A stretch of DNA of 64,000 nt from Hygrophila difformis. Its lineage: Eukaryota > Streptophyta > Magnoliopsida > Lamiales > Acanthaceae. The stretch spans positions 39,210,890 to 39,274,889 of the forward strand of contig JAOANR010000001.1 in assembly GCA_030278955.1 (NCBI GenBank). The letters run 5' to 3'. The notes beneath the pieces were generated by a model. That model worked only from the letters and a program-made list of their open reading frames with translations. It was not told the DNA's origin and made no database searches. Below, piece by piece: positions 1 to 50,117 of this stretch (position 1 is the first letter of the stretch; each line of letters starts with the position of its first letter). The position numbers and the translations under genes were made by a program.

Positions 1-1211
1 CATTATGTGTGATCTCACCCATTTCAGATTCAAAAGCTAAACTAAGCTCAAAATAACAAAACAGAATTTGAATCTAGCTAGAACATGCTTGAACATAAAA
101 GAAACAAAACAAACTTTAAACTTAAAAAAAACCTAATCTGAGCTTGATCACCCATAAGCATGCAACATTATCCCAAGAAAAAGTCACCAAGCAGTGACAT
201 TAAAATGCAAAATGAGGGTCAAATGACCCAAGGAAAACGAAAACAGTAAGATCCATGGGGTGTGAGACCCACTTCATGATTTTGGGACACAAATGGAGAA
301 TGTTTTCCCATATTATTAAACGGTGTTGTTCATACCCATGGTTTGGGTACCACAAACCCTTAAACAAAAGTTTAGAACAAGAAACAAGGTGTAAAACTGG
401 CTATCTAACCCAAGTGCAGTAAACTACTTCTAACTAGTGCATAAATTAAATAATACAAAAAAAATCTAACTAAACTACCCTAAACTAAACTAACTACTGA
501 ACTTCCCACTTGTCTTCAAGAGTGAGTATTTTTCTCTAAAATTCTTCCAACTTGTAGCTCAAAGGAAACACCTCATATTTATAGAGGGGAAACCCTAAGC
601 TCATGGGCCTTGATTTGAGCCCATTGTGTCTCAAGACATCACACACATCACAGCTTTGTCTCGGAGCACCAAGTTTGGTCGCGGAACACACTGCATGTGG
701 CAAAGCTTCTCGACTGGGTCTTGTGTCTCTAAAAATGTATCTTATCTTTGTCGCGGAATGGACCTTTGTCGCGGAACAGGGCATCGCGACAAAGGTATCG
801 CGACAGATGACTCTGGCTGGTCTCCTCTTCATCTGGGCCACTTGGTCGCGGAACCCCTCCTTTGTCGCGGAATACTGCATCGTGCCAAGGGGCTTCCGCG
901 ACAAAGGTCTTCCTGGGCCTGCTGGATTGGGCCAGATGGGCCGAAAATATTCTTTTTGTGGGCTTTTCTCTCTTTTTCCCATCTTTTTGTTTCCTTTTCT
1001 TTTTTCTCATGTTTTTGGATTTTTCTAACATAAATATGTAGTAAAATTACATATTTATGCCTTTTTCACACCAGCTTATTATTTTTACAATTATGCATAA
1101 ATTAGTCCAATTCGACTACTTTCTTACTTAATGTAAGACCGGAATGCGATCAAATGCCCGTTTAAGACACGGAAATGGATTGAAAATAATGGTCATTTCT
1201 GGCCATTATCA
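1..1211 (-). mobile_element. Family-1 large repeat unit, partial copy cut by the window edge
   Basis: Reverse-complement partner of 1637-3000. Shared blocks include the start near GTGATCTCACCC, a GGGTCATTTGACCC block near 220, a TATA box in reverse (about 576-584) and a purine-rich tract, here read as pyrimidines near 950-1025. The unit ends at 1211 in GGCCATTATCA, the same terminus as the complete units at 37192-43217 and 43505-49021. It holds no credible protein. Orientation is given by the TATA box. The far end lies outside the window, so a target duplication cannot be tested. Confidence 0.75.
640..910. repeat. GTCGCGG hairpin array (array 1) of the left family-1 unit
   Basis: Repeated GTCGCGGAA and its complement TTCCGCGAC, or CGCGACAAAGG, occur in paired order. 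One pair is CCTTTGTCGCG with CGCGACAAAGG around a short loop (about 767-796). A longer outer stem, GTCGCGGAACCCC with GGGGCTTCCGCGAC, encloses another hairpin at about 845-903. In unit orientation the array lies just upstream of the TATA box. Reading frames here are by-products of the repeats. Confidence 0.8.
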
Positions 1212-1636
1212 GCGAGTTGGTCTAATTGCAAGCTTATGGGATAATTTAATTAAAGTTGATTTTGAGCGTTCAATGATTAAACCCCATTTGAGAGTGAGTG
1301 AATTTTCCGATTCGCTTATATGTGAGGCTCTGGTTTATTAAATATGTCATGTCATACCTTAATTCTCACTCTTAATCTTTGCATCTCTCAAACATGATAT
1401 TCATGAAGGATTGATGATAATGTTTGATTTGTAGGCCCGATGTAGTGAGCAAGTATCATTTTATTAAACACTGCAATTAAGGGAATTTAACACTTGTAGT
1501 TTTTGATTGTCTTATCCCAATCCAAAACGAATGTGATTTATGAAGCCACGAAAATGAATTGAATATGCAGAGTCCGTGTTCTCTAGAACATTGACTCTGA
1601 CTGCTCGGGGACAATCAGTATTAAATGTGAGGATGT
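1212..1636. other. Unclassified spacer between two inverted family-1 units
   Basis: About 425 bp of sequence with no similarity I recognise and no long frame. It separates the left unit (ending CCATTATCA at 1211) from the right unit (starting TGATAATGG at 1637). Unlike the 43218-43504 spacer it does not encode hAT transposase. It could be host sequence or a remnant of an older element. Confidence 0.5.
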
Positions 1637-1979
1637 TGATAATGGCCAGAAATGACCATTATTTTCAATCCATTTCCGTGTCTGAAACGGGCATTTGATC
1701 GCGTTCCGGTCTTATATTAAATAAGAAAGCAGTTGAATTCGACTGATTTATGCATAATTGTAAAAATATTGAGCTGGTATGAAAAATGCATAAATATGTA
1801 ATCTTATTACACATTTATGTTAGAAAAATCCGAAAACATGAGAAAAAGAAAAGAAAAGAAAAAGGAATGAAAAAGATGGGCAAAAGAATAAAACAAGCCC
1901 ACAAAATACAAAAAGATGGAAAAAGAAAGAAAAACCCACAAAAATACATGTTCCGGCCCATCAGGCCCAATAAGGCGAA

Positions 1980-2345
1980 CCAGTCGCGAGACTGGCATCC
2001 TGGCGCTAAGCATGGCCCCGCGACTAGGGGCAGGCTAGCGACACAACAACCCAACTGAAGAGAAGGCCAGTCCTGGAACATCCTGTCGCTAGCCCCGTGG
2101 CGCGAACCATGGTCTAGCGACACAGGAGGGTTCCGCGCCACACCGGCATGATGAAGAAGAAACTGTCCCTAGACTCCTGTCGCTAGCCCCGTGGCGCGAT
2201 CCATGGTCTCGTGACAGGAGTATGGCTAGCGACACAGAATCAAGACCTGGTCCAGAGAGCCTCAAGACAGGGCGTGAAGTCTTGCAACATGCAACCTAGT
2301 TCCGCGCCACACCGCGTAATGCCGCGACATGCTTGTGATGTGTGT
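1980..2345. repeat. Hairpin array 1 of unit A (CTGTCGCTAG / GTGGCGCGA type)
   Basis: Several copies of CTGTCGCTAGCC pair with GGCTAGCGACA further on and enclose a second inverted pair built on GTGGCGCGA, CCATGG and TCTCGTGACAG or TCTAGCGACA. Sequences differ between copies, but the order arm, inner hairpin, complementary arm recurs. The array ends about 60 bp before the TATA box. Confidence 0.75.
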
Positions 2346-2403
2346 GAGCCTTGCGACAGACTTGGGCCTCAGATCAAGGCCCATGGGCCTAGGGTTTCAC
2401 CTC

Positions 2404-2410
2404 TATAAAT
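2404..2410 (+). promoter_or_regulatory. TATA box of family-1 unit A
   Basis: TATAAAT after a GC-rich array, followed by a conserved leader with GACATTTTCC about 40 bp downstream. An equivalent TATA box occurs in all family-1 units (reverse at about 576 and 41320, forward at 44367), between the two hairpin arrays. This fixes the likely transcription direction. Confidence 0.6.
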
Positions 2411-3055
2411 ATGTGGCGATCCCTATGTGCTTAAGAGTTAGACATTTTCCATTCTTGAAGACAGAATCAAGAATCTCTCTAGGTAGTTCTTAGTTTAGTG
2501 TTAGTTTTCTTTTTTGTATTATTTAATTTTTGCACTAGCTTAGCTTAGATTAGTTCTACTTTAATATTGTTTTTCCTTTAAATAGCTTAAGTAGCCACTG
2601 TTTACATGCTTTATTTTTGGTTATGGATTTTTGATTTAGGGTTTGTGATGGCCAAGTTAATGGGGATTAACAAACCCACCTAATAAATGGGAAGTTAAGC
2701 TGAAAATGTGTCCCAAAAACATGAAATGGGTGTTATTAACTCATGGATTTACTGCTTTCCTTTTCTTTTGGGTCATTTGACCCTTAGTTCTTGTTTAGCG
2801 CTTACTGTGTTCTTAGTTTTGGTTAATGGTGCATGTTTGTTTGTGATCAAACCCTAGATTAGGATTTTGCTTTATTTTAAATACTGTTCCAGTAGTTTAT
2901 TTATGTTCAAGCATGTTCTTGTAGATTTTAAATTGTGTTTGGTTATTTTAGCTCAGAACAGCTTTTTAAATCTGAAATAGGGTGAGATCACGCTGTTTGC
3001 ATGCCACTGTTCATTTCTGCTTTTACTGACTTGTGTCCTGAACCATCCCTGTCGC

Positions 3056-3565
3056 CAACTGCCTCCTGTCGCGAAACCACGTCTAGCGACAGGAAGGTTG
3101 TTTCGTGACAAGGGTGTCTAGGGACACCTGTCTTGATATTTTGAAACACTCGGTCGCGAGGCACTCCTGTCGCGGACCCACAGTCCGCGACACGACACCT
3201 GCTAAGCGACTAAGGACCAAACTCTTGCAAAATTTTCTGCATGGCCTCTGTCGCGGAACACTCCTGTCGCGGACCCACGGTTCGCGACACACTTTTATTC
3301 CGAGACAGAAAATTATTGCCTTGTCAATATTTTGAAAACCCAGTCGCTAGACACCTTGTCGCGAGGCCACGCCTCGCGACACAATTTCCGAACTAGCGAC
3401 TGGGAGCCAAATACTTTGAAAATTCTCAGAAAACCCTGTGTCGCTAAACTCCTGTCGCGAGGCCACGCCTCGCGACACACTTTTGCTTAGCGACACAAGG
3501 TGAAACTCTGCCAAATTTCTGAAAATCTGTCGAGGTAACCATGTCGTGGGTCTAGGCTCATGACA
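3056..3565. repeat. Nested double-hairpin array 2 of unit A
   Basis: The clearest array in the window. At 3437-3497 an outer stem TGTGTCGCTAA / TTAGCGACACA encloses an inner perfect stem GTCGCGAGGC / GCCTCGCGAC with a CAC loop (3454-3476). At 3341-3402 an outer stem CAGTCGCTAG / CTAGCGACTG encloses the same inner hairpin (3358-3380). At about 3151-3212 the inner stem is instead GTCGCGGAC / GTCCGCGAC. Changes in one arm are matched in the other. Confidence 0.85.
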
Positions 3566-5077
3566 CAATTTATGGTTTCTCGACAGAATCCTCTCTTCTA
3601 TTTAATCCCAAAAATTCTGATTTCTTATCCTCTATTACATTGCAAACACTCACATCTTAATCCCACGGATTAAGATGTAATATCCCAGAATTGCAATATA
3701 AGGCGTTATGCTGCCAAAATTTTGATTCTCCATTTCCATCACTTAAATAATTGAACCCTCTAGTCATTAATAATTAATGATTGTAATTAGCAATGATTAA
3801 ATCACTAATTGTGATGATTAAAGGATCTTTGTTCAATCGTCATTAAAATATTTTTCTATAAATAAAACCATGATGCCTTAAACAGATAATCCGGACTGTA
3901 ATTTATTATGGTAGGAGGGATTATTTAGGTCATCAACTATGGATTAGATTCATAATCTTGCATGAGAAACCAATGTCTCTCATACAAGGCCTTGTTTTTA
4001 TTTTATTTCCATCTTGTCTTTCCTGTATTGTGTGTAACAATTAGTGAAGAATACATCAGACTAATGTTGGCGGGTATTCCCTCACGGATAAACTAGCTCG
4101 TATTCTTGGTATTAGTTACTAAGTGTTATTTTGCATGGTCTGGATAGCAGTCAGTGGAAGCCTTGGCGGTTCGTCCATCCGGGATTATAATAGTTGCTCA
4201 GCTGACTCCTATTTGGATGCAGTTTTCTTTTCTTTATCTTAATTTCCAAACCCAAATTCTAATCTGTAGTGTGAATCAGTCAACATCTGTCAATGCTGAC
4301 TAATGATCATTACATAAAAGAAGCATGTAGGTTTTTATCTGAATTCACATACAGTGGAGGCCCAACTGGCATTGACACTGCCATTATAGGGTTTAAACTA
4401 TCGAAATTCGCTCCATCCGAGTAATTGGGAAATTGGACAGTAGATGTTTGCAGTCCACCCGATTATTCTGCCATTACTTTCGTCCTCTGACCACTTCTTG
4501 TTTGTGTTTCATCTTCTGTCTAGACCCGCCAGTATATTTTGGGTCAATTCATTTTGCACTTCATTATATCCGTATGCATACTACTATTATGTAATTAATG
4601 TGGTCTATAATATTTAGGGATCCTTCCCTTGGACAATAGAAGTCTAGATTTAAACAGATATTGCATATTAAATTTCCAACAAAAACTCCTTTATAAAATC
4701 CGGATCTTAGTAAGGGATAAATTCCTCAGTTATGACTAGCTCATATTCTGTCAAGGGTTGATTTTGGGAAATTAGAAGCAGAGTCAGCAATTAGGTCTCA
4801 TCTAGACTAAAAGGATCTGTGTTTTAATTGAGAGTCTAGTACCTGTTTAGGGAATGGTTTTCAGATTCATTCTTCTCCAAAATTGCTGTTTGTTGGGAAT
4901 CTGAGATTAATTATTACACCGAGATGGGGTCCACTTGGATTCAAATACAGTGTAGTAGATAATCATAGAGGAACAACATCCAGGCCTTGGTTATTTTCTA
5001 AGATAGGGTTGAGTTCCTTTCAACCACTGTCCTCTTCTGCCAAAGCCTACCTTTGAGTCCTGAGTGAGTACATCCGG

Positions 5078-5101
5078 AACGAACTAATTTATTAGTTCGT
5101 T
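5078..5101. repeat. Perfect 11-bp inverted repeat conserved in family-1 units
   Basis: AACGAACTAAT and ATTAGTTCGTT are separated by TT. The same hairpin is at about 38558-38582 in unit B. At the same place in unit C (about 47092-47116) the sequence differs but still forms a stem, GGAATAGATC with GGTCTGTTCC. It lies in the conserved 3' half of the unit. Confidence 0.7.
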
Positions 5102-6415
5102 TCATTAGTTTGTATCTCATAACCACTCGGAAGGAGGTGAACACTGCAAGCGGTTCACTGAGAGCCGAGAATTCTTGACCCACACCCGGTCACCATGACT
5201 GGGGGCTGTCTTTTACTACCAGGGTCAGACCTTCAAAACCTCCGAGTGATAGGATTTTAATTGCTTTCTTTATCGCTTTCTTTTAAACGCTTTTATTAGA
5301 GGTCACTCGGTTGTATTGAGAGTTGTGTAACTGCTACTAGGATTGATAGTTAAGGGATAGTTCAGGCTTGATTAGAATCTTTGGGTGTGACATGGGAGAG
5401 TGATAGTAGTACTTGGCACTTCAATAAATGATTTGTCAGGTGTTGCTTTTCCACCACAGATGAAGTAACATACCCAGGCCAGGGCAGTTACAAATCTGTG
5501 GTATCTTAGAGTCTGTGGTCTTAAGAACATGTAAACTCATGTTGTAAGTACCTGTCTATCAAAGGGAACTCAACACTGAGAGCATGAGAATTAGCTGTCT
5601 GACAGGATTATCCCAACCAAAGATCTGTGTATTAAAATGGAAGTTTAATTATGCCTTATCCCAATCTTGTCCAATTTTTATTCTTTTCTTCCTGTTCCTT
5701 CTGTCCACACTGTAAATCAGTTTCATAGCTAGCATAGTGTAAATTTTCATTGCTTCTACAGATAGTATTTACTGCATTCTTAGAATAACTTTATTTGCTT
5801 TCTAGTATAAATTCACCCGCTTTCTAGAATAGAATTCATATGCTTTGTAGAATAGATTTAAGTGCTTTTGTAATTTAGTTTAAATTCAGTTAGTAGATGA
5901 TTAATCACTTTTCAAACTAATTGGAGCAATACGAGTGGAAAATCTAGTAAAACGACGTGCGCCCTGCTTCTATCGCACATCCTCCAATGAACGATCCGGT
6001 CTTACTATAAATTACTGCAATTTTTGACACCGTGCGCTTTCGGGGGCACAGTTTCTTAATACGAGTAATAAAAACGTGACAACCTATAAATATATTCCTA
6101 ATCCCAACTCCGCCATCATAAATTGGTTCCATTAAATAAAATTGAAAACCAGGACTATGATTTTTCAGAAAATACTCATGTAGTGGGAACTTGTCAAAAG
6201 TTTCATGGCAAGGATCTTCAAGGCAGGAAATTGTCAAAAGTTTCATGCCGGGGAGGTCCACAGTGCCGTTTGAAATCAAAGTTTCTCACATGAGTAATAA
6301 AAAGTGAAATATATCCTTAAACCTCTTTCCCACAAATCATAACTCTTTTCATTTAATAAATTCAACTTGAGAAATTTTAGAAAAATACTCGTGTAGGAAA
6401 TTGTCAAAAGTTTCA

Positions 6416-15937: not shown

Positions 15938-15944
15938 ATAGAAA

Positions 15945-32420: not shown

Positions 32421-32437
32421 ACCATGCTCTGATACCA
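32421..32437 (-). promoter_or_regulatory. PBS (tRNA-Met) of the CRM-like element
   Basis: Minus strand TGGTATCAGAGCATGGT, 13 bp inside the 5' LTR edge at 32451. Confidence 0.88.
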
Positions 32438-32450
32438 AATTTAAAACTAA

Positions 32451-34002
32451 TGCCATGGATCCTTATGGATGATCGCAAAACAACAACAAAATCGAATCAC
32501 GCGAAATCCTAAGCGGAGAAGAGATTGGAGAAGAAGAGTTGTGATCCGATGGATTTAACGAAAAACAATGCGGAATTGAAAAAGGATAGTGGACTTAGTC
32601 TCATGACAACGATCTCGATGGAAGCAACCAACGCGCCTTCTACGTGGCCTCATCCACTCCAAACCGAGCAATCGACCGAGGGAACCCGAGGACGTCCATT
32701 CCTCGTCTCCACGAACAAAGCTACTCCAAGCTTCACCCGATTTCACGCCCTCACGTAGGCTAAACGTCTCTCATTTTCTCACCCTTCACAAGTGACGAAA
32801 ATCGAAAGAAAAGAAGAAGGAATATTTCATTCCAAATGAGAAAAAATCTCAAAGTTTACAAAAGATTCAAAGATACAAATGAATTCAAGTAAACTCCTAT
32901 TTATAGATGAAGGGAGGATAGGAGTGACCTATGATTACAAGTAAAGATGACCTTCTAAAGTGGTAAACAAGTCATCTTGGAAGTTAAGCTCATACACTTA
33001 ATGCCTTAAAAGTCAACAAAAGAAGTTACATATGACCTCCTCAAGAGGTAACAAGTTTCCCCCTTCTTTAGTTGTGACCTTCTCAACAAGTTGCAAGTGA
33101 AGTAACTTCCACTTCAAAGCTTCCTTCCCGCCATGTACTGAACTTCCGACGCGATGTGATGAAATGTTCACGCTTTGTCCAGAAATCCGCTCGCGATATA
33201 CTGATCTCTTTCTCGCGATATACTGAACCTCGCATGGCTTGTAACGGAATCCTCTCGCACTGTCCAGACTTTCCTCCTCGCTATATCACTTTGCTTCTCG
33301 CGATGTGATGAACTTTTCTGAAATACGTTGCAAGCTTCCAAAGTCACTTTTTATGCTTCTACTCGCCATATACCTATAAAATATAAGAAAAGTCATAAGA
33401 ACAAAGCACTTTCAAAGACATAGCATAGGAACAAAGCAAGGGAAAAGATATATCAAAAGACTAAGGCATGAAAGTATTCTTCGGTTGTCCTTAACACCTT
33501 CAAACTAAGATTAGAAGTCATTAAGACATGTTTAGTACTTAATCAAGTTCATAATCATGATTATAAAAGTATGAGAAATCATCCAAAACTAGTTGAAGGT
33601 TGTTTAAACTTGACTAGGTTTGTTTAAGGAAGATGTAATAGAAATCATGGTTTCTTGTCTCCCTTTCATGACCCCTTTATTTAGCGAATGTTAAGGATTC
33701 GATTCCCGGAGTTCTAGAACTCCGATTGAGGCGATTCAAAAGCCCACGCGATCCTTAGAACACCTCCTTTCCAACCAAGCTTTGAAATCGCTTTTGCGGA
33801 AATGTTGAAATACGACGACGCGGCCGAACAGCCTGCTGCCACGTGTGCTTCTTCTTGTTCTTCCTCAATTAGACTTCCTTGCTTCATATAATTCTCCAAG
33901 GCATGAATGAACTTGTTGATTCGAGCTCTCGACTTTGGTCCTTCACCGAAATATGGGATTGCAATGTTGACCGTCGCGTTGACCGTCGGGGCATCCATGT
34001 CA
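32451..34002 (-). repeat. 5' LTR of the CRM-like element
   Basis: 1552 bp, matching 24000-25550 with scattered substitutions (for example CACGCG against CACACG near the start). Followed by the GTTGT duplication and the resumed copia sequence. Confidence 0.9.
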
Positions 34003-36366: not shown

Positions 36367-37191
36367 ATGAAGAAAGCTCAAAGCATTGATTCTTTCTTCA
36401 AAAGAAAAAATCCGGAGGAATCATCCTCTCAAATAAATTCATCTATTTCTAACAATCTCAAAAACTTTATACTGATAAAATATTTGATATTCAGTCGTTG
36501 GAGCGAGATCCGGGTTTGCGGTTTCCAATGTCTTAAGTTCCCTGTTAACAAGATTGATGAAATTAGGAGAGCTTATATCATGCTTGGACCTTATCAATGC
36601 CTACTTGACAAGTATCCGAAAACTAGAGATAAACACCCTCGTAGCATTGAAGCATCTTGATTAAATTATTCACTTCTTGGTTAGAATATTCTCCAACTAA
36701 AGATGCTATATTTTGTTTAAATTGTTATTTATTGCACAATATTTTGAAAAGTTTATATCTCAAGAAGTTGCTGAAAATAGACCTCTTGAGAACTTCAACT
36801 GAAGCAACTAGATGGCTTGCATTTCAGGGATGCTCGTTTAGAGAGCATGATAAGTCAATAACATCGATTAATCATGGAAATTTTTTTAGAGTTGATAAGC
36901 CTTATTGCATCTTATAATGATGGAGTGAAAAAAGTTATTAATAAAGCTCAAAGGAATGCATCATATACATCACCAACAGTACAAAAACAAATTTGCAAGT
37001 ATTGGCAACTATAGTCAAAAGTTCCATTAGAGAAAAAGTTGGCGAGGCAAAATTTTGTATCGTTGTTGATGAAGCCAAAGATGAATCAAAAAAGGAACAA
37101 ATGTCCATTGTTTTAAGATTTGTTAATAAACATGGCTTCATACAAGAGAGATTTTTTGGACTTGTTCATGTTAAGGACACTAGTGCATTGA
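36367..37191 (+). pseudogene. hAT (TTF/DUF4371-type) transposase, N-terminal part
   Basis: Starts with KKAQSIDSFFKRKNPEESSS, the usual N-terminus of this plant transposase family. Next come the zinc-finger-like segment LEYSPTKDAIFCLNCYLLHN in another frame, the part KEQMSIVLRFVNKHGFIQER, and FFGLVHVKDTSAL. Several frameshifts are present. Reading stops at the unit B insertion (ATTGA, 37187-37191). Confidence 0.85.
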
Positions 37192-39994
37192 TGAAACTTT
37201 TGACAAATTTCGTCACACGAGTATTTTCTAAAATATCCCAGGTTTGAATTTATTAAATGAAAAGAGTTATGATTCGTGGGAAAGGGGTTTAAGGATATCT
37301 TTCACTTTTTATCACTCATGAGGGGAAACTTTGAGTTCAAGCGGCGTTATGGACCTCCCCGGCATGAAACTTTTGACAATTTTCACGGTGCAGCCGGGAT
37401 AGATAATTCAATCTTGACCTTCAGTCTGTCACACTGAAGATCCCCGGCGTTTGGCATCATAAAACTTATCATAGTTTTATGTCATGAAGATCCTTGCCAT
37501 GAAATACATTCCCACTATATGAGTATTTTCTGAAAAATCATAATCCTGGTTTTAAATTTTATTTAATGAAACCAATTTATGAAGGCGGAGTTGCGATTAG
37601 GGATATATTTATAGGTTGTCACGTTTTTATTACTCGTGTTAAGAAACTGTGCCCCCGAAAGCGCACGGAGTCAAAAATTGCAGTATTTATAGTAAGTACC
37701 GGATCGTTCACTGGAGGATGTGCGATGGAAGCAGGGCCCACGTCGTTTACTGAGATTTTCCACTCGGTTACTCGATTCAAGTTTGTGTTTGATATCTAAC
37801 AACTACTTGACAGAATTTAATCTGAGCTTATGGAAGCAATTGAAATAAAGCAGATAAAATGATTCTAGAAAGCGAATTAAATTTAATCTAAAAAAGCAAT
37901 AAAATTATTCTAAGAAAGCGGTAAAATTATTCTAGGAAAGCGGTTAAAATATGACAGACGGGACAGGGAGAAAATAATAAAAATTGGACAAGATTCAGAT
38001 GAGACACAATTGAACTTCCATTTTAATACACAGATTCTTTGTTTGGGATAATCCTTTCAGTTAGCTAACTCTCATGCTCTCTATACCATGTTCCCTTTAA
38101 CAGACAGGTACTTACAGTAAGAGTTTACATGCCTTAAGACAACAAAATCCAAGATACCACAGATATACAACTGCCCCCGCGCAGAGGTATGTTATTTATC
38201 TGTGGTGGACAAGCAACACCTGACAAATCATTTATTGACGTGTCAAGTACCACTATCATTCCCCCATGTCACACCCAAAGATTCTAACCAAGCCCTGAAC
38301 TATCCCTTAACTCTCAGTCCTAGTAGCAGTTACACAACTCTCAATACAACCGAGTGACCTCTAACGAAAGCATTTAAAAGAAAGCGGTAAAGAAAGCATT
38401 TAAAATCCTATCACTCGGAGGTTTTTGAAAGTCTGACCCTGGTAGTAAAAGAAAGCCCCCAGTCAGAATGACCGGATGTGGATCAAGAATTCCCTAATCT
38501 CGGTGAACCGCTCGCAGTTCACTTCCCTTCGGGTGGTTATGAGATACAAACTAATGAAACGAACTAATAAATTAGTTCGTTCCGGATGCACTCATTCAGG
38601 ACTCGAAAATAGGCTTTGGCAGAAGAGGATAGCAGTTGAAAGGAACTCAACCCTATCTTAGAAAATAATCAAGGCCTTATGTATTGTTCCTCTAGAATTA
38701 TCTAACACACTGTATTTGAATCCAAGTGGACCCTATCTCGGTGTGATAGTTAAGACTAAATTCCCAATACACAGCAATTTTGGAAAATAAAAGATTTTGA
38801 AAATCATTCCCTAAACAGGTACTAGACTCTCAATTAAAACACAGATCCTTTTAGTCTAGGTGAGACCTAATCGCTGACTCTGCTTCTAATTTCCCAAAAT
38901 CAACCCCCAGTCGGATATGAATTAGTCATAACTGTGGAATTTATCCCTTACTTAGATCCGGATTTTATAAATGAATTTTTGTTGGAAATTTATTGCGAGA
39001 CATCTGATTAAAATCGAGACTCCTGTGTCCAAGGGAAGGATCCCAAAATAATATTGACCACAATATCTACATAATAATATCATGCATAAATTATAGAGAA
39101 GTGTAAAATAAAATGACCCAAAATATACGGCGGGTTTAGACAGAACTTGGAACACAAAGATGAAATAGCCGGAGATTAGAAGAATTTTGGCTAAAGAGAG
39201 TGCCAGAAATAACTGGTGTGATCTGGACTGCAAACATCTGCTATCCAGTTCCCAATTATTCCAGATGGAATGATTTTTAGACAGAAAAGGAATTTCCAAG
39301 TGACGGTGACCACCGTCATTCAGCTCCCTTTTGTCTGTGAATGGAAGAAAAACCCACATATTTTCTTGTTGTAATAATTCTCAAATAATGTTGGTCGACA
39401 TTATTTAATAATACTACAACTTGAATTCAGGTTTGAAATTAAAATAAAGAAAATAAAACTGTATCCGGATAGGAATCAGCTGAGCAGCTATTATAATCCC
39501 GGATGGACGAACCGCCAAGGCTTCCACCGACCACTATCCGGACCATGCAAAATAACATCTAGTAATTAATATACAGACCACGAGCTAGTTTGTCCGTGTG
39601 GGAATACCCGCCAACATTAGTCTGTTATATCTCTTACTAGTTGTTTCACACAACACGGAAAAGACAAAATAAATAAAAGAAAATATTTTTGGGTCATCTT
39701 GTATGAGAGACATTGGTTTCTCATGCAAGGTATGGAATTAAACCCATAATTACTCTTTATGTATAAATAATCACTCATTCCATAATTAATTAATTAATTA
39801 CAGTCGGATTATATACTTTGATCATTAGAGTTAAATTTTATAGAAAAGTCTTTTAATGGAAATTGAACAAAGTTCTTTATATCAATTTAATCATGGTTTG
39901 AGATCATTGGATTTCAACCTCAAAAATATTAATATAAAGGTCCAATTAATTAATGGAGTGAGATGGAGAATAAAAATTTGGCAAAAAGATGTCA

Positions 39995-40465
39995 AGTCTG
40001 TCGCGAGACAGAGTTTGTGTCGCGGACCGTGGGTCCGCGACAGGGGGATCACGACAGAGAGGTGGGAAATAAGAGAAATTGGATTTTTAGAAATTTAGGG
40101 TTCCGTGTCGCTAGACAAAAATTGTGTCGCGAGACGTGGTCTCGCGCCACGGGTCTGGCGACACGGGGGCTGGAAGTTAGAATTTTTGGAAGTTAAAAGA
40201 GATGAGGACCCAGTCGCGAGACCATAAATTGTGTCGCGAACCTAGGCTCGCGACATGGGTCTCGCGACAGGTGGAGTTTTAGAATTTTTGCTAAGTCATG
40301 GAGACCCAGTCGCTGGACTTGGATTGTGGCACGAGACATGGTCCCGCGACAGGAGTCTAGCGACTGGCATGGTCTAACAAAATATTCTAAGTATTTTGGG
40401 CTCCCAGTCGCGAGACCAAAAGTGTGTCGCGGACCATGGGTCCGCGACAGGGGTTTCGCGACAGA
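39995..40465. repeat. Nested double-hairpin array 2 of unit B
   Basis: Five successive units. Example: inner stem GTCGCGGACC / GGTCCGCGAC around ATG (40426-40448), enclosed by GTCGCGAGAC (40407-40416) and GTTTCGCGAC (40453-40462). Other units use GTCGCGAGAC / GTCTCGCGC and an outer CCAGTCGCTGGAC / GTCTAGCGACTGG. Between units lies AT-rich filler such as TTTTAGAATTTTTG. Confidence 0.85.
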
Positions 40466-41354
40466 AGGGTTTTAAAAATTTTATAAAATTTGGCAGCATA
40501 ACGCCTAATATTGCATTGCGGGGGAGTGCGTTGGGAAAATTACATTGCAACCCGTGGGGTTACAATGTGATGCAATACAATATAGGAAATGCAATTTTTA
40601 AATAAATATGCATGAACACTCAAATATCATCCAATTTAAGATCTAGTGTACTAAAATGAAAACTAAAGTAAATTAATAAAAATAAAACAAGACAGGACAC
40701 TCATCAAAACTAAACTACCTAACACCAAACAAAGCAGGACACTATACTAAAACTAGACAAGAACATGATACTAAATATAAATAATAAAAGAAACTAGCAA
40801 CAGTAACAACACCAAGTCCAACTATGCTAACAAACCAATCTAAAAAAATATAATAAAACCTACACTAGATCTATCAAAGGATAACATAAAGTGTTTATGC
40901 ATTTTTATTAAATCTAAATGAAGCATTAAACCTAACAAAAAAAAAAATAATAAAAATGGTCAAGTGACCAAAAATGCAAAAATAAAGCAATAAATATTAT
41001 GGAAATGATCCATAACAAATTTTTGGTGGAACATTTTCTCAAATAACATCAAAAACCAAAAATGGTTTAAACACACCCATTGATTAAGTGTTTCAAACCC
41101 AAAAGTACAAAAATATAAACTGGAAAAATAAAAAGTGAACACTAGCTACACTAATTTATTACAAAACAATAAATTAAAACTAAGCTAAAGTCTATTTCTA
41201 CATTGCATAAAATTAAACTATCTACCTACACTAATTTTTGGAGAGCACAGTGGTGCCTCCAAGAACAGTAAAAATAAACTAAGTGTAGCTAGGTTACTGT
41301 TCAAGGGGGTGGGAGGTTATATTTATAGACAAGGATTAAGCCCTAGGCCCATTT

Positions 41355-41850
41355 AAGGCCCGTGTCGCTAGACAGAATTGCTGTGTCCTGGAACAATTTG
41401 TGGCTAGGGACAAAAAATTTGATTGCATTTCACTTCAGGGCTGTGAGCATGAGGGGACGGGAGCTCGAGTCCAGCAGGATAGGACAAAATTTTCCTACCC
41501 AGCGGGACCTCAAGTCCTGGGAGCTCCTGGTTGTTTGAGCATGTGGGAAAATGTGGAATGGGAGAGGCACGTGAGTGTCACATGACCTGCTTTTGTTTTT
41601 CTCTCTCGTGGCGCGAGTCTACTTCTGTGGCGTGATATCGCGCCCTGTCGCGGAACCATGACTCGCGACAGGGTCTGTCTTGATATCCACTCTCAGTCTG
41701 TCCTTATGCACCCAGTCTTTAAGCAAATTCCCTGTCTCTAGGCTCCTGTCGCTAAGCGTGGCCTCGCGACAGGGATTTGTGTCTTGAGCCTCTCTCACAG
41801 TCGCTAGCCATTTTTCCAGTCGCGAGACCACGTCTAGCGCCACCGGGGTC
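41355..41850. repeat. Hairpin array 1 of unit B
   Basis: GTCGCTAGAC, GTGGCGCGAGTC, GTCGCGGAACCATGACTCGC and GTCGCTAAGCGTGGCC arms with their complements, on the upstream side of the reverse TATA box. It is less regular than array 2. Confidence 0.65.
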
Positions 41851-41865
41851 CGGAGGTCCGGATAA

Positions 41866-42650
41866 ATTTTATCTCTCTTTTATTTTTCCTTTCTCTTTCT
41901 TCTTCCTTTATTTTCTCTTACTCTCTTTCCTCCATTTTTGTTCTTTCACAGCTTCTTTCTCTCTGTTCGTTCTTTTTCTTCTTTCCTCCATAATTCCATT
42001 CTCTCATTTCCTCCTCCTCTCTTTTCATTTCCAGTTTTTCATCTCCTCCATTTCTTTCTTCTTCTTTCTTTCTCTAATTTTTCTTCTCTTTCCTGCTCCA
42101 TTTTTCTTGTTCCGGTTTTCCATTTTCTTTCCTTCTTCTTGCTTTCTCTGTTTCCTCTCTTCCTCGTTTCTTTTTCGTTTTCATTTTCTTCTTTATTTTT
42201 CTTTGTGTGCCTGGATGGATGGACGACGAAGAAGAAGGAGGTGGTGGCTGGATGAGCGGCGGCGAGAGGAGATGGTGTTGGTGATGGTGACTGGTAAGGT
42301 GGAGATGAGGTGGCTGTGGCGGAAGTTGAGGGATGGTGAGGCGTTGAGGGATGGCCGGAGGCGGAGCTCCGATGGTGCAGTTAAGATGGCCGGAGAAGAG
42401 GGGACTGTGGTGGTGGTCGGAGGACGAGATCGGAGAGGAAGGAGATGGATGGTGGTGGAAATGGAGGATGAGTTTGGCCGGAATAGGGTATGTGGAGGTG
42501 AAGGGCGGCAGGCGTTGAAAAGGGAGAGAGGTGGCGGCTTCGTCGTGGCTGTGGATTTGGAGGGGTGGCCGGAGGCGGCGGCCGGCGACGGCGGCGCAGG
42601 GCGGCTGCGGGAAATAGGGTTAGGGTTAGGGTAGGATTAGGGTTGGGCTT
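41866..42650. other. Extra block in unit B: pyrimidine tract plus GC-rich segment with telobox
   Basis: About 330 bp of nearly pure C/T, then about 430 bp of GC-rich sequence with many GGAGG and GGTGG triplets, ending GGGTTAGGGTTAGGGT (about 42617-42633). It is absent from units A and C at this place. Composition resembles a plant gene's 5' region or 5' UTR (read on the minus strand, a telobox then GC-rich sequence), so capture of host sequence is possible. The frame 41777-42634 is low-complexity and not convincing. Confidence 0.45.
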
Positions 42651-43217
42651 GGTTTGAATTGGGCTAGGGGTGGTTTTGTTGGGCTTGAATGGATTGAATT
42701 GAGCTGGACTAAATCAAATAAAAATGATTAATGGACTGTTGGACTGTTGAATTCTTGGACCCAATTAATTTACCTGCAATTAATTAAGATTAAAAGTGAT
42801 AAGTGGACCAATTATTTTAATTATAGCAGAAAAACAGAAATAAATAAAAAAAAACCATAAAAATTACAAATATACATCAAAGTATTAAGTAATATAAATA
42901 AGTATATTTATTTCCATTTGATTATTTAGCTTGTATTCCGTTTAATGGACCCAAGTTCCATCGATCAAACACTACAAACCATAATTATCAAATGTGGGAT
43001 TTTTAATATTTTTATCATGTTTTTGGGTTTTTAACACAAATATAATAAAAATAACAATATTTTTGTCTTTTTCAATACCAGCTTATTATTTATACAAACT
43101 TGCATAAATCTGTTAAATTCAACTGCTTTCTTATTTAAATAAGACCGGAATGCGATCAAATGTCCGTATTAGACACGGAAATAGATTGAAAATAATGGTT
43201 AATTTTGGCCATTATCA

Positions 43218-43504
43218 ATTGACATTGAAAGAAGGAATATTATCTATTTTATCTCATCATAATCTCGATGTTCAAAGTATTAGGGGACAAGGATATGATG
43301 GTGCAAGTAACACGCGTGGAGAATGGAACGGATTGAAAGCTTTAATCATGGATGAGTGCCCTTATGCCTACTATTTCACTGCTTTGCACATCGATTGCAG
43401 TTGGCATTAGTTGCCTTATCTAGAGATGTCATCTCTATTCATAAATTTTTCACAAATATGCAATTTATTAATAATGTTGTTGGAGCTTCTTGTAAACATA
43501 TTGA
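43218..43504 (+). pseudogene. hAT transposase, middle part, between units B and C
   Basis: Encodes LTLKEGILSILSHHNLDVQS, the catalytic-domain signature RGQGYDGASN, then the insertion-domain start FAHRLQLALVALSRD in a second frame. It picks up directly from DTSAL before unit B and leads into the part after unit C at 49022. Frameshift near 43380. Confidence 0.88.
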
Positions 43505-43829
43505 TGATAATGGCCAAAATTATCCATTATTTCCAATCCATTTCCGTGTCTGAGACGGACATTTTGATCGTATTCCCATCTTATTTCAATAAGAAAGCAG
43601 TTGAATTCGACAGATTAATGCAAGTTTGTAAGAAGAATAAGCTGGTAATGAAAGACACAAAAATATGCAATTTTAATTGTATTTGTGTTAGAAAAATCCA
43701 AAAACATGAAAAGGGAAAAGAAAAGAAAAAGGAATGAAAAGATGGGCAAAAGAATAAAATAGCCCACAAAAATAAAAAAGATGGGAAAAAGAATGAAAAT
43801 CCCACAACTTGAAATTTTGGCTAAGTATG

Positions 43830-44290
43830 GAAATCAATTCGGTCTATACGCAATTCGGTCTAAACCGAATTGCTCATTAGACCGAATTGCTGAAGAGAAG
43901 AAGAAGAAAAATGGACAAGTGTTGAAGAAGAGAAGCAGAGCAACCAATTCGGTCTGTGGCAATTCGGTCTAAACCGAATTGACCTTAGACCGAATTGCAC
44001 TATGGAAAGAAGAAGACCCTGAGCAGAAAAGAAAAGAAGGGATTCGATCTATACAATTCGGTCTAGGCTGAATTGCTTGCATAGACCGAATTGCCTCAAA
44101 GCAAGGAAGCCAAACAGGAGCCATTATCAATTCGAAAAGGCCAATTCGGTCTACACATAGACTGAATTGATGAATGAATACCACATTCCAGCTAAAGATC
44201 AAGAAGGAAGACCTCGTGCAGTTCGAATTGCACAAATTCGGTCTAAACCGAATTGCATGAGGAGACCGAATTACATTCAAATTGCATCCA
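43830..44290. repeat. Nested hairpin array 1 of unit C (CAATTCGGTCTA type)
   Basis: At 43835-43889, outer arms CAATTCGGTCTA and TAGACCGAATTG enclose an inner CAATTCGGT / ACCGAATTG hairpin with loop CTAA (43851-43872). Similar nested units lie near 43940-43997, 44040-44092 and 44217-44290. No GTCGCGA motif is present. Confidence 0.88.
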
Positions 44291-44366
44291 ATTGAAGTTG
44301 TGAAGCACGTGAGAAATGCATGACACTGTTGATGGGCCCTGATGGGCCTAGGGTTTCGAGAAGAAG

Positions 44367-44374
44367 TATAAAAG
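44367..44374 (+). promoter_or_regulatory. TATA box of family-1 unit C
   Basis: TATAAAAG between arrays 1 and 2, about 860 bp from the unit start. Equivalent to 2404 in unit A. Confidence 0.6.
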
Positions 44375-45229
44375 CTGACCTTCCTCAACACAAGAAACAT
44401 TCTATTCTGAACACTTTACAAGAGATTTGGTTGGGGGCAAAAAGAAGTGGCAGAAGGTGTTCTTCACCCCTTAAGGGTTAGGTAGGTAGTTTAGTTTAAT
44501 TAGTTTATTTTTCAAGCTTGTAGTTTAGTTTTAATGCTTTAATCTTAGTTTATTTTTGTATAAGCTTGTTACCACCTTTAGAGTAGCCATTTCCATACAC
44601 TTTACATGCTTTGTAGTTAGAATAAACCCTACCTTCAAGTTAATGATGGTTTTGGGTTATTTATTTGCTTTCAAGTGCCAATACAAGAAGAAATTCCAGA
44701 AATGGGTTTTATTTCATGTGTTCGACACCCCTTTAATGCTTTCCTTAGCAATAAATGTTAGAATGTTTGTTTGTTTCAACTAGGTTATATTTATTATGTC
44801 CTAGTTGACTTGCATTCTCAATAAATGCATGTTTAGTGGGTTTTGGTATGTTTTTATGCCTTAGAGCTTCAAATGAGTGTTCTTAGGTTTTAGATAATTT
44901 TAGGGTTGTTAGAATTTATTTTAATGTCTTATGTTGCTGTTCTTGTTCTCTTTATTTTAGTTTATTGTTGCCTTAGATAATGTAAGTGTTCTTATTTTTA
45001 TGCATGTAGTTCTTAGATCTTTAAGTGTTTTAGATTCTTTAATCTTTGATGTCTTGTTTGTAGAATTAGGGTTTGATTCATACCAATGTCTGCTGGACAC
45101 GTATTCTACTATGCTATTTTCCTTAAAATGCTCACTAGTGTGGCTGTGAGGTGACACTGATGTGAAATGAGGGATTTGGTAAATCTCATCCATCATAAAC
45201 CGCACAGTGTAAACCGAACCTGTACTTGT

Positions 45230-45815
45230 GAGCACAAAAATACACTTATGTGGAAAATGACATGCAATTCGATTTGAGGCATATCCATCATAAACCGAAT
45301 TGCCCATGAGAAAGGAAGTGCATGGCAAAAATGTTTGTTGAATGCCTTATATAAAAATCTATATGCAATTCGGTTTAGCCCATGAGACCGAATTGCATAG
45401 TAAAAACTCTTCTCATATGGTGCATAGGCAATTTGGTCTATGCAATTCGGTTTAGACCGAATTGCTCCATAGACCGAATTGACCTTGTACACCATATTGT
45501 ATGCATTCCATCCCCTCATGCCTTAGTTTATTTTCTTTCTTTCACCAATTCGAATTGCCCATTCGGTCTAGACCGAATTGACTTGGCAATTCGAATTACC
45601 CTCATTTTGGGGTAATTGCCTTGTTCAAATTTGAGTAAGGGAATGACTTCATCAATTCGAATTGTCAAATCGGTTTAGACCGAATTGCTTTGACAATTCG
45701 AATTGGATGATGTTTCAAATCTTTGCAAGGATTAATTGGGTAAGGTAGTACTTCATCCTTCATGCATCCTGAATTCGGTCTATTTTACACCTTACTCGGT
45801 AGACCGAATTGATTT
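45230..45815. repeat. Nested hairpin array 2 of unit C
   Basis: At 45654-45704 a perfect 16-bp outer stem AATTCGAATTGTCAAA / TTTGACAATTCGAATT encloses an inner CGGT-TTAG-ACCG hairpin. Near 45427-45483 an outer GCAATTTGGTCTAT / ATAGACCGAATTG encloses CAATTCGGT / ACCGAATTG. Same motif set as array 1 of this unit. Confidence 0.88.
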
Positions 45816-47517
45816 CTTCCTTCGATTTTAAAACGTCAAAAATATTTTATCTTCCTGAGTTGTGTAAGTTGCATGGGTGTATTGGGCTTAGGCCCATCAC
45901 GTCTAATTTTATCCATTACACATCTCAACCCATTAGTGTCTACATTATTGTGTGATTAACACTCACACAATACCAAAAATATTTTGTTAATTTCATCTTT
46001 TCTGTTTATTGTGTGTATGAATGGGTAATAAGGAACATCACAGATCAATGTTGGCGAAAAGGTCCCTTCACCGGGATAACGATTAGCTCGTCTTCTGTGT
46101 GTTAATTATTACTCGTTATTTTGCATGATCTGATTAGTGGTTGGTGGAAGCTACGGCGAAAAGGTCCCTTCACGGGGATAACGATTAGTCACTCAGCCAA
46201 CTCCTAATTAGATACAGTTTTCTTTTCTCTATCTTAATTTCAAACCCGAATTTCGAGTTACAGTACTGTTAGATAGTGTCGATCAACACTGTTATAGCAT
46301 TACTGTAGTAAGAAAACGTGTAGGTTTTTCCTCACTCATAGACAGTAGGACTCTCGATGATAGCGATCACTATCATTAAGGGACCCCTATTGTCTAAAAA
46401 TCATTCCATCTGGAATACTTGGGAACCGGATAGCAGATGTTTGTAGTCCGGATAACCCCAATTATTTCTGGCACTCTTTTTAGCCAAATTCTTCTTATCT
46501 CAGGCTAATCCATCTTTGTGTATCAAATTCTGTCTAAACCCACCATATATTTTGGGGTATTTTATTTACTTCTCATATACATGTATGCATGATATTATTA
46601 TGTAGATATTGTGGTCTATACTATTTTGGAGATCCTTCTCCTTGGACATAGAAGTCTTGATTTAAATCAGATACTGCATAATAAATTTCCACAAAAATCA
46701 CTTTATAAAAACCGGATCAGAGTAAGGGATAAATTCGACAGTTATGACTAATTCATATTCTACTGGGGGTTGATTTTGAGAACTTAGAAGCAGAGTCAGC
46801 GATTAGGTCTCACCTAGACTGAAAGGATCTGTGTTTTAATTGAGAGTTTAGTACCTGTTTAGGGAAAGATTTTCAAACATCTATTGTCTTCTCAAAATTA
46901 CTGTGTGTTGGAAATCTTTTATTAAGTATTGCATCGAATTAGTGTCCACTTGGATTCGGATAAGATGTGATAAATAATATTGGAGGAACAACATATAGGC
47001 CTTGGTTAATTTCTAAGGTAGGGTTGAGTATTCTTTCAACTACTGTCTTCTCCCGCCAAAGCCTAAAATTGAGTCTTGAGTGAGTACATTCGGAATAGAT
47101 CTTCACAGGTCTGTTCCACTCAGTTTGTATCTCATAACTAACCGGATGTTATAAGCCCTGTGGCTTACTGATATTTGGGAAGTTCTAAATCTGCATCTGG
47201 TCACCAAGATTACTGCTTTCTTTATCGCTCTCTTTAAAATGATTTCATAGAGGTCACTCGGAAGAATTAGAGGTTGGCCGCCGGTTGTAAGGTTTAAGTG
47301 TTATAGATTAGTTCGGGAATTAATTTGGACTTTGGGTGTGACAAGGGGGATGATAGGAGTACTTGGCATATCAACTAATGATGTGTTAGGTGTTGCTTAT
47401 CCACCATGAAGGAATAACATACCTCGGCAGGGGGAGTTATTAATCTGTGGTATCTTAGAGGTTGAGATCTTAAGAGCATGTAAATTCTGACTGTAAGTAC
47501 CTGTCTGTTAAAGGGAA

Positions 47518-48610
47518 CATAGTCTAGAAAGCATGAGGGTTAGTTAACTGTTGAATTATCTCAACCAAAGATCTGTGTAACAAAAATGGAAGTTTACTTG
47601 TGTCTCATCTGAAATCTTGTCCAATCTTTATTATTTCCTTCCTGTCCCTTCTGTCATATTTTAAATCTGCTTTCATAGAATAACTTTATCCGCTTTCTTA
47701 GCATAATTCTTATTGCTTTCTTAGAATAGATTTAATCGCTTTTTAGACTAAATTTACCATGCTTTGTAGAATAATCTTTAATTGTTTCCATTGTCTAGTT
47801 TAAATTATTGTCAAGTAGTAATTAGAAACCATTGCAAAACTTGAATCGAGTAACCGAGTGGAAAACCTTAGTAAACGACGTGGGCCCTGCTTCTATCACA
47901 CATTCTCCAGTGAACGATCCGGTCCACCTTGATCTGAGCTTACCTGGAAACAATTTCAGACGAGAATTATAAAGTAAAACCAATTGACCAACATAAAATT
48001 CCTTATGTTTAATTTTTGAATCATGAATTTTCTTGGTTTGATCTTTATAAATCTTGCTGCTTTCATAGGCTTCCAGTCTCATTTCTTCCAATTTTGACAG
48101 ATCAAATTTTCTCTTCTCTTGTCCCGATTGAGCATCCATGTTGAGCATCTTAATGGCCCAATATGCTCTGTGCTCTAATTCAACTGGAAGATGGCAAGCT
48201 TTAACATAGTCTAGAAAGCATGAGGGTTAGTTAACTGTTGAATTATCCCAACCAAAGATCTTTGTAACAAAATTGGAAGTTTACTTGTGTCTCATCTGAA
48301 ATCTTGTCCAATCTTTATTATTTCCTTCCTATCCCTTCTGTCATATTTTAAATCTGCTTTCATAGAATAACTTTATCCGCTTTCTTAGCATAATTCTTAT
48401 TGCTTTCTTAGAATAGATTTAATCGCTTTTTAGACTAAATTTACCATGCTTTGTAGAATAATCTTTAATTGTTTCCATAGTCTAGTTTAAATTATTGTCA
48501 AGTAGTAATTAGAAACCATTGCAAAACTTGACACGAGTAACCGAGTGGAAAACCTTAGTAAACGACCTGGGCCCTGCTTCTATCGCACATCCTCCAGTGA
48601 ACGATCCGGT
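47518..48610. repeat. Duplicated segment (about 410 bp) flanking an integrase fragment
   Basis: 47518-47933 and 48205-48610 are near-identical direct repeats (start CATAGTCTAGAAAGCATGAG, end GAACGATCCGGT). Units A and B have a single copy. The 271 bp between them is gypsy integrase sequence. This looks like a template switch or unequal exchange. Confidence 0.85.
47934..48204 (-). pseudogene. Ty3/gypsy integrase C-terminal fragment
   Basis: The minus strand encodes LEEMRLEAYESSKIYKDQTK and VGQLVLLYNSRLKLFPGKL, the typical end of the integrase of Tat/Athila-lineage gypsy elements, continuing into the conserved TGSFTGECVIEAGP frame of family 1. It hints that family 1 belongs to, or recombined with, a non-chromoviral gypsy lineage. 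Confidence 0.75.
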
Positions 48611-49021
48611 CTTACTATAAATTACTGCAATTTTTGACACCGTGCGCTTTCGGGGGCACAGTTTCTTAACACGAGTAACAAAAACGTGACAACCTATAAA
48701 CATATCCCTAATCCCAACTCCATCTTCAAAAATTAGTTTCATTAAATAAAATTAAACCAGGATTATTATTTTTCAGAAAATACTCATATAGTGGGAAATT
48801 GTCAAAAGTTTCATGGCGAGGATCTTCATGGTAGGACATTGTCAAAAGTTTCATGCCGGGGAGTTTCATGGCGCCATTTGAAATCAAAGTTTCTCACATG
48901 AGTAATAAAAAGTGAAATATATCCTTAAATCCCTTCCCATAAATCATAACTCTTTTCATTTAATAAATTCAAACTTGATATTTTATAAAATACTCGTGTG
49001 CGGAAATTGTCAAAAGTTTTA

Positions 49022-50117
49022 ATTGACTAATTGAAATCTTTTCATGCCTCAAACATTGCTTATTTGGTTAGTATTGATGAGCTTGACACTGGAAGGGGAC
49101 CTAACAAATTGGTTCGTTACAAAGACTAGGTGATACCCGTTGGAGTTCACATTTGAAATCTATATCTAGTTTGATGACCATGTTTAGTGCAACATATGAT
49201 GTTTTACTTGATATTGCTAAAGATGGAACTACATCTGCTCAACGTGGAGATGCCGATGCAGCTTATGAAACATTAACTTCTTTTGACTTCGTATTCATTA
49301 TACATCTTATGCGAAAGATTTTGGAGATTTCCAATATTATTTGTCAAGCATCGCAAGTTCAATCTCAAGATATATTGAATGCAATGCATCTTATGTCCTC
49401 CACTAAATCCCTTATTCAAAAATTGAGAGATGATGGATGGGATGAATTAGTTGCAAATGTGAAGTCTTTTTGTGTTTCTGTCAGTAGCATGTGTCAGCTT
49501 TTGATACTCAGTACATTGCAAGAACGGGAAGGGCTCGAAATCAACCAGATGAAGCAACAATTGGACATCATTATAGCATTGACATTTTTAATGCTGCAAT
49601 TGATTCACAACTCCGAGAGTTGAACAATAGATTTGATGAAAAAGCAATGGAATTATTAATTCTTAGATCATCACAAATGCACATATCATTCAAAATTGAT
49701 TATGTATGTAAGTTGGTTGAGAAATTCTACCCACATGATTTTGCAAATCATGAAATTTTAAAGTTGAGAATGCAATTTGAGCATTTTGATTATGTTCGGA
49801 CAATTCCTGATTTTAGCACATTGGAGAATCTTTCTGATTTATGTCAATGGTTGGTGAGAACTAGAAAATCAATCGTATATCCCCTTGTGTATAGATTGAT
49901 ATCTCTTATTCTCACACTTCCGATATCTACTGCTACTACAGAGCGATCGTTTTCTACAATGAACCTGGTCAAGACTACACTTCGTAACAAGATGGAAGAT
50001 CAATTTCTTACTGATTGTTTACTAGTGTATATTTGAAAGGAAATTGCAAAACAAGTTAGTATAGATTCAGTTGTAGATGGTTTTCGTGATATGCAAGAGA
50101 GGCGTGTAAATTTTTAA
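49022..50117 (+). pseudogene. hAT transposase, C-terminal part with dimerisation domain
   Basis: After unit C the gene resumes (VSIDELDTGRGPN, then LLDIAKDGTTSAQRGDADAA). A frameshift lies in 49500-49620. The C-terminal dimerisation domain includes TLPISTATTERSFSTMNLVK and RNKMEDQFLTDCLLVYI. It ends FRDMQERRVNF and TAA at 50115-50117. The domain mediates oligomerisation of hAT transposases. Confidence 0.9.

Follow-up and report, generated by a model that had tools for sequence, protein, structure and literature searches.

En/Spm (CACTA) transposons carry subterminal TNPA-binding repeats, a motif of ~12 bp that recurs in both orientations near the element ends, and VANDAL transposons belong to the MULE class. 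The locus described here resembles En/Spm in having a repeated motif of ~12 bp in both orientations and differs from that DNA transposon in that its motifs lie in LTRs with a 5-bp target site duplication (TSD), belonging to an element with a stretch like a primer-binding site (PBS), a polypurine-like tract, gag, and reverse transcriptase (RT). In the available parts of the work on Arabidopsis, the regulatory motifs of VANDAL elements turn over rapidly and in concert, matched by their VANC regulator proteins, and the VANC target arrays, like those below, consist of short motifs that are arrayed in non-coding regions, diverge together, and differ between related families (PMC5735166, PMC10398659). 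VANC21, as presented in those parts, has motifs in one orientation and a known binding protein, whereas the arrays below are nested inverted repeats with both orientations, reside in an LTR retrotransposon, and have a putative reader. The LTRs of Del likewise hold a fast-changing, CpG-rich stretch in their 5′ part, a plastic CpG island for which the authors suggested an escape from silencing; the available excerpts of that account mention neither inverted repeats, palindromes, hairpins, or tandem repeats nor a lineage-specific motif (PMC4029996). In crapaud of Podospora, the U3 ahead of the TATA box also differs sharply among subfamilies while the 3′ half is conserved, within LTRs of only 339-443 bp and with the term 'inverted repeat' absent from the text available in part (PMC10787394). 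The accessible portion of the account of Athila/OTA Ty3/gypsy elements reports no nested hairpin arrays with lineage-specific motifs (PMC6317226), and a limited literature search found no titles on nested inverted-repeat arrays in plant LTRs, from which we do not claim absence from print.

The window, a stretch of 64,000 nucleotides (G000:C1:39210890-39274889) from the 915,113,747-base genome of Hygrophila difformis, contains four copies of an LTR. Units A, B, and C, each ~4.8-6 kb long, are LTRs that belong to a single family of giant Ty3/gypsy retrotransposons. The first-pass annotation had placed C at 43830-45815, which we corrected to 43505-49021; its statement that A, B, and C share termini, a TATA box, and the 3′ half was borne out, with 5′ ends that are 79-87% identical and 3′ halves that can be aligned. 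The features are as follows.

1..1211, minus strand (read from 1211 to 1): unit A2, an LTR truncated by the window start, with a GTCGC array 1 (hairpins 902-845 and 804-750)
1603..1636, plus strand: polypurine-tract-like stretch ahead of A; a near-identical stretch precedes the 3′ LTR of a full-length C relative
1637..6415, plus strand: unit A, an LTR with GTCGC arrays (array 1 ~1983-2233, array 2 3051-3584)
37192..43217, minus strand: unit B, a solo LTR with GTCGC arrays (array 2 40462-40000, array 1 ~41847-41577) and the TSD ATTGA on both sides (37187-37191 and 43218-43222)
43500..43504, unstranded: TSD ATTGA, left of C
43505..49021, plus strand: unit C, a solo LTR from 5′ TGATAATGG to 3′ GTTTTA, homologous to A and B, with ATTGA at either side
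43835..44273, plus strand: C array 1, upstream of the TATA box (hairpins 43835-43889, 43945-43997, and 44040-44093, plus partial ones)
44343..44374, plus strand: C core promoter, TGGGCCTAGGGTTT ... TATAAAAG, homologous in A, A2, and B
45265..45811, plus strand: C array 2, downstream of the promoter (hairpins 45429-45481, 45546-45598, and 45653-45705, plus single ones)
46259..46395 (limits approximate), plus strand: two covarying hairpins, nested, in the 3′ half of C, with counterparts at ~4180-4450 in A and ~39480-39220 in B
49022..49026, unstranded: TSD ATTGA, right of C

The target duplication of C measures 5 bp, array 2 of A2 falls outside the window, and A is probably a 3′ LTR, given the polypurine-like stretch that precedes it. 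At G000:C4 there is a full-length relative of C whose two same-strand LTRs begin at 38048707 and 38065015; it has GGATG at either side, a PBS-like TGGCGCCGTTGCCGGGGA after the 5′ LTR, and a polypurine-like GCTCGGGGACGATCAGTATTAAATGTGAGGATGT before the 3′ LTR. Its interior matched gag (PF03732) and RT, RNase H, and integrase domains (PF00078, PF17917, PF17919, PF17921), and the order RT-RNase H-integrase within one open reading frame (ORF) indicates a Ty3 rather than a Ty1 type. By resemblance, the family may belong to the Athila clade. Between pol and the 3′ LTR of this element lies a 231-aa ORF with F-box (PF00646) and TPR_27 matches (L027:96-791); it was the one internal F-box ORF found when an element-encoded regulator was sought, and nothing ties it to the arrays.

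B and C face each other head to head across 287 bp (43218-43504, a span that includes the target copies). Both sit in a single degraded hAT-like gene with PF05699 downstream, and its reading runs on across the joined flanks of B and also across those of C, there with a stop at the C site. Both of these LTRs carry the target duplication ATTGA, and A and A2 are head to head as well, 425 bp apart. Inverted within C is a fragment like the C-terminal part of a plant integrase (47925-48202, minus strand; 1993 protein matches, the best-scoring 67% identical), which lies between 409-bp LTR copies that are 97.6% identical (47516-47924 and 48203-48611). The U3 of B has, between the 5′ terminus and array 1, a stretch of ~1.16 kb (41850-43010, minus strand) that is missing in A and C and consists of a CCACC-rich and a purine-rich part; a stretch of similar appearance, judged by eye and unaligned, is present in L076. 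Elsewhere in the window, pararetrovirus-like ORFs occupy 14839-20064 (RVT_1 and a sub-threshold Peptidase_A3 match at 17480-18544), and another Ty3/gypsy-like element, with 1552-bp end repeats that are 98.5% identical and an RT at 26659-29124, spans 24000-34002.

That C carries nested hairpins built on a different motif from those of A and B, as had been annotated, was confirmed by motif counts, by a sequence-blind detector, and by a common geometry. The half-site is CAATTCGGTCTA in C and GTCGC in A and B. With up to 2 mismatches allowed, CAATTCGGTCTA occurred at 39 sites in the window against 5.2 expected, a count equaled in 0 of 100 shuffles, and 29 of these sites sit in 43835-45811, in two arrays and on both strands. 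GTCGCGA was found at 21 sites (8 in A, 11 in B, 2 in A2; 1.6 expected). The blind detector returned 22 nested hairpins in the 64 kb versus a mean of 0.6 and a maximum of 4 in 20 dinucleotide shuffles; half of these 22 lie inside arrays (A 3, B 4, C 4), and the weak array 1 of B contributes 0. No viral contigs carrying the C palindrome were found.

The geometry was read from 22 hairpins placed by hand on motif matches (17 + 5), which are not independent cases, since hairpins within an array are partly tandem copies. The shared plan is an outer arm of 11-12, a left gap, an inner palindrome of 22-23, and a longer right gap, for a total of 53-60, and in LTR sense the left gap was the shorter one in 21 of the 22 hairpins, the exception being 1983-2042 in A. 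A typical array unit is a nested inverted repeat of ~55 bp made up of four half-sites, each 11-12 bp long, whose order is fixed and whose spacing is similar, and it recurs about every 100 bp along the arrays; in C, only six hairpins of the hand-placed list are cleanly nested, the rest being single or decayed. The arrays flank the conserved LTR promoter, upstream and downstream, at the same placement in four LTRs (for A2, array 1 only in the window). Arms were more alike within a hairpin than between hairpins for the outer arms of A and B (p = 0.00015), the inner arms of A and B (0 of 20000), and the outer arms of C (0.013), and not so for the inner arms of C (0.92).

Homology was scored as z values of local alignments against dinucleotide shuffles. 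Array 1 of C was at noise level against A, A2, and B (z 1.1, 1.0, and −1.0), as was its array 2 against A and B (0.3 and −0.9), and across ten comparisons of C arrays with arrays of A, B, and A2, z ranged from −1.2 to 1.2. Within one LTR, array 1 matched array 2 at z 23.9 in C, 22.4 in A, and 10.5 in B. The core promoter of C is homologous to those of A, A2, and B (z 5.9, 4.6, and 5.0), as is the DNA between the arrays to A (6.8), A2 (3.6), and, weakly, B (2.5); the stretch directly after array 2 scored 2.7 against A and 2.7 against B. The first-pass annotation had named two findings that would overturn its view, namely non-array parts of C without homology to A and B and C arrays derived from an unrelated insertion. 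The 3′ halves, promoter, and mid region of C all align with A and B, and C-type arrays recur across the genome, so the arrays are not a private insertion and a foreign array inserted into C is ruled out.

The C array segment as a query gave 4136 first-look candidates, of which 40 were scored; C-type hairpins were read in 20 loci (C included), where each of the six cleanly nested hairpins reappears, bearing private changes. Queries with the 3′ halves of A, B, and C gave 7570, 7533, and 7008 first-look candidates, with 40 scored for each, the query's own copy included. Among the A loci, 28 of 30 (A included) have GTCGC arrays, and two (L046, L051) have unrelated sequence at the array place; a new motif in these two was considered and rejected, as the sequence lacks hairpin arrays and is taken to represent other insertions. 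CAATTCGG was present in all 11 C relatives examined, which were picked from two of the match lists (L058-L062, L079-L084; L081, which is mostly N, has 2 sites), with no further motif type among them. The search for further motif types that had been proposed succeeded among the relatives of B: of 13 typed, picked from 39 listed besides B, nine carry a third motif, ACGRCGCTATCC, and four carry GTCGC. The genome thus holds at least three half-site types.

The third type, with ACGRCGCTATCC and outer arms that resemble TACGRCGCTA, keeps the geometry of the other types; the left gap is shorter in 31 of 33 array hairpins (right gap capped at 11). Its arrays align in register with those of B (z 15.1 and 18.0) and score 5.9 and 4.9 against A and 2.0 and 0.2 against C. 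Array 1 held third-type cores in both third-type copies examined (8 and 6 sites, with GTCGC at 1 and 1) and GTCGC in one GTCGC-type copy (7 sites). In an alignment of 14 array sequences, with the hairpins of B serving as the frame, both-sided changes affected 123 cells, 99 of which were Watson-Crick paired, against 16-31 of 68-89 when one arm was slid by 1-3 columns as a control, and a third-type copy as frame gave 50 of 97 against 7-31 of 57-76, where the frames come from two of the aligned sequences, which favors them, and cells count sequences rather than events. Comparison of the nine third-type copies with one another yields few both-sided changes (4 or 6 paired, 2 unpaired). Between B and the third type, structure was demonstrably kept while sequence was replaced. 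The annotated claim that structure and not sequence is conserved is supported in part: it agrees with this pair, aligned in register with pairing retained, but within a lineage sequence is not free.

The flank downstream of array 2 is 95.2% identical between GTCGC and third types and 94.7 and 96.4% within them; the arrays are 74.1% identical between types and 82.9 and 94.3% within, and the upstream flank 78.9% between and 84.9 and 91.3% within. Because the downstream flank is similar across types and the array and upstream flank are not, the LTRs appear to be mosaic, with a boundary close to where array 2 ends, and, judged from these identities, part of the motif distribution reflects mosaic LTRs. 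The suggested plot of motif against phylogeny was made for 21 rows and 350 columns of the downstream flank and is poorly resolved: three CAATTCGG rows group with full support, 14 of 18 inner branches are unsupported, and the number of changes between GTCGC and the third type is not settled by this tree. Seven same-strand pairs among the B relatives are spaced at 8.2-8.5 kb, compared with 15-16 kb for several A and C pairs; these short pairs (e.g., G000:C4:25488213, C12:57641061, C3:13830942, and C14:13237518, with partners ~8.3 kb away) are probably non-autonomous short forms.

A further array lies inside the element. Behind pol, the full-length C-type element has 23 CAATTCGGTCTA half-sites (≤ 2 mismatches; 38060359-38060957) in nested hairpins of the same form, with CAATTCGG as the motif. 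For the A type, two elements were deduced from LTR pairs on the same strand (spaced at 15.0 and 15.4 kb) and read at the corresponding distance; they have 17 and 16 GTCGC matches there (two of the 16 isolated) and no CAATTCGG. These A-type internal arrays are poorly nested: the detector gives a nested hairpin, a single one, for only one of the two. In one of these elements (L086), the internal array comes after a conserved hairpin that the C-type element also has ahead of its array, and in the other (L085) the detector lists no such hairpin. Two short elements, a B relative and a third-type element (LTR-to-LTR distance ~8.3 kb), had no internal array in the one stretch read from each, with the limits of both stretches taken from coordinates only and the array type read for the third-type element. 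A nested hairpin conserved in four elements (L022:3453-3509, L086:1541-1599, L087:104-162, L088:70-128) holds a near-copy of the polypurine-like AAATGTGAGGATGTTGAT and is perhaps a second polypurine tract.

Evidence for constraint on the arms is mixed, being present in C-type copies and absent in A-type copies. In 20 C-type copies, chosen as best matches to the array itself, arms vary less than other array sites (0.041 vs 0.071; circular shift, 0 of 526), and the difference from the mid region (0.061) is not significant (p = 0.065); the arms of 28 A-type copies show no extra conservation relative to the remaining array sites (0.048 vs 0.044). CpG sites are less variable in the arms than in the 3′ half in C-type copies (0.056 vs 0.155) and more variable in A-type copies (0.064 vs 0.047). 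The observed/expected CpG ratio is 0.74-1.24 in the arrays and 0.11-0.21 between them in all four LTRs.

Selection on the array hairpins as RNA strands found no support, as mismatches, fold energies, and one-sided changes show no consistent bias: G.T and A.C mismatches are balanced in the LTR arrays (24 and 22, in 22 hairpins), the sense strand has the lower fold energy in 8 of 22 hairpins, and one-sided changes comprise 47 G.T versus 34 A.C in the 20 C-type copies and 39 versus 73 in the 28 A-type copies. Of the 32 pairs in the nested 3′-half hairpins of A, B, and C, 15 show both-sided changes; 92.6% of the cells pair, compared with 26.9-54.9% after sliding, and the sense strand has the lower consensus fold z in 36 of 45 overlapping windows. 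From its sequence, this segment is probably a sense-strand leader RNA structure, and with sense-strand preference and covariation in the 3′ half and no such signal in the arrays, the leader is probably RNA-structured while the arrays behave as DNA elements. Rfam searches of C and A gave no known RNA family above the gathering score, C having sub-threshold matches resembling miRNA precursors only and 1900-3700 of A having no match up to E 2.

The rule that emerges from the arrays examined is one motif per lineage within a fixed geometry, as the core recurs in both LTR arrays and in the internal array and C-type arms vary less than spacers. By analogy with VANC, we tentatively read the arrays as platforms for sequence-specific DNA recognition, which this giant Ty3/gypsy element carries in its non-coding parts and which a co-evolving reader would recognize. 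In favor of this reading are the single motif across separated arrays, the lack of RNA-strand bias, the geometry retained across motif types, the low variability of arms in C-type copies, and a CpG ratio that is higher in the arrays than between them. The distribution of motifs may have another main cause, compatible with this and the other readings, which we regard as possible but doubtful: the block from array 1 to array 2 would have been swapped between lineages, with no switch in place. The identities on the two sides of array 2 favor such exchange, and crapaud, in the part of its account available, offers a parallel in U3 variants ahead of the TATA box together with recombinants (PMC10787394). 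Swapping accounts for distribution and not for origin, however, and the hairpins of B and of the third type are in-register homologs whose arms have changed; the internal array, moreover, lies outside the LTR block and yet has the matching motif, and LTR exchange alone does not bring it into line with that of the LTR. It is improbable that the arrays are structures of the genomic RNA serving dimerization, packaging, or translation, in which self-complementary hairpins would be free in sequence as long as they pair. The same LTRs do hold a covarying, sense-favored structure in their 3′ half, and palindromes start dimerization in retroviruses (PMC5874298) and have been proposed to take part in that of Ty1 (PMC5454406), as far as the available parts of these sources go; the arrays themselves, however, have no clear G.U excess by the counts above, and structure alone does not need a uniform hairpin spelling.

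Arrays without function seem unlikely, though several observations suit them: template switching during replication or reverse transcription would make and repair inverted repeats, tandem duplication would multiply them, conversion would homogenize them, and the spelling would come to differ between lineages by drift. Arms pair within hairpins without strand bias, both-sided changes keep pairing, and A-type arms show no extra constraint; according to the portion of the source available, template switching can make and maintain stems with compensatory changes (PMC8794818). Such an origin needs extra assumptions for the asymmetric geometry in 21 of 22 hairpins, for array positions relative to the promoter that agree among four LTRs, and for one motif common to LTR and internal arrays, and it is at odds with C-type arms that vary less than spacers. 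The likeness of arms within hairpins counts in turn against a recognition code, as binding to half-sites alone does not need it. The A-type copies with arms no better conserved than their surroundings, the poor nesting of the A-type internal arrays, and the array-free stretches of the two short elements count against it as well. Under the recognition-platform reading, the half-sites would be read by a dimeric DNA-binding protein that either the element or its host encodes; this protein would control LTR expression, e.g., through activation of the element or protection from methylation. Motif and protein would change together, which would make each lineage its own regulatory group, and tandem duplication with hairpin-templated or inter-array conversion may spread a new half-site through the arrays.

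If this reading is true, it would suggest that recognition codes with a matching regulator arise in copy-and-paste elements too, beyond VANDAL. The passage from B to the third type, in register, also provides a natural series for how a multi-copy, two-sided site is respelled without losing its pairing.
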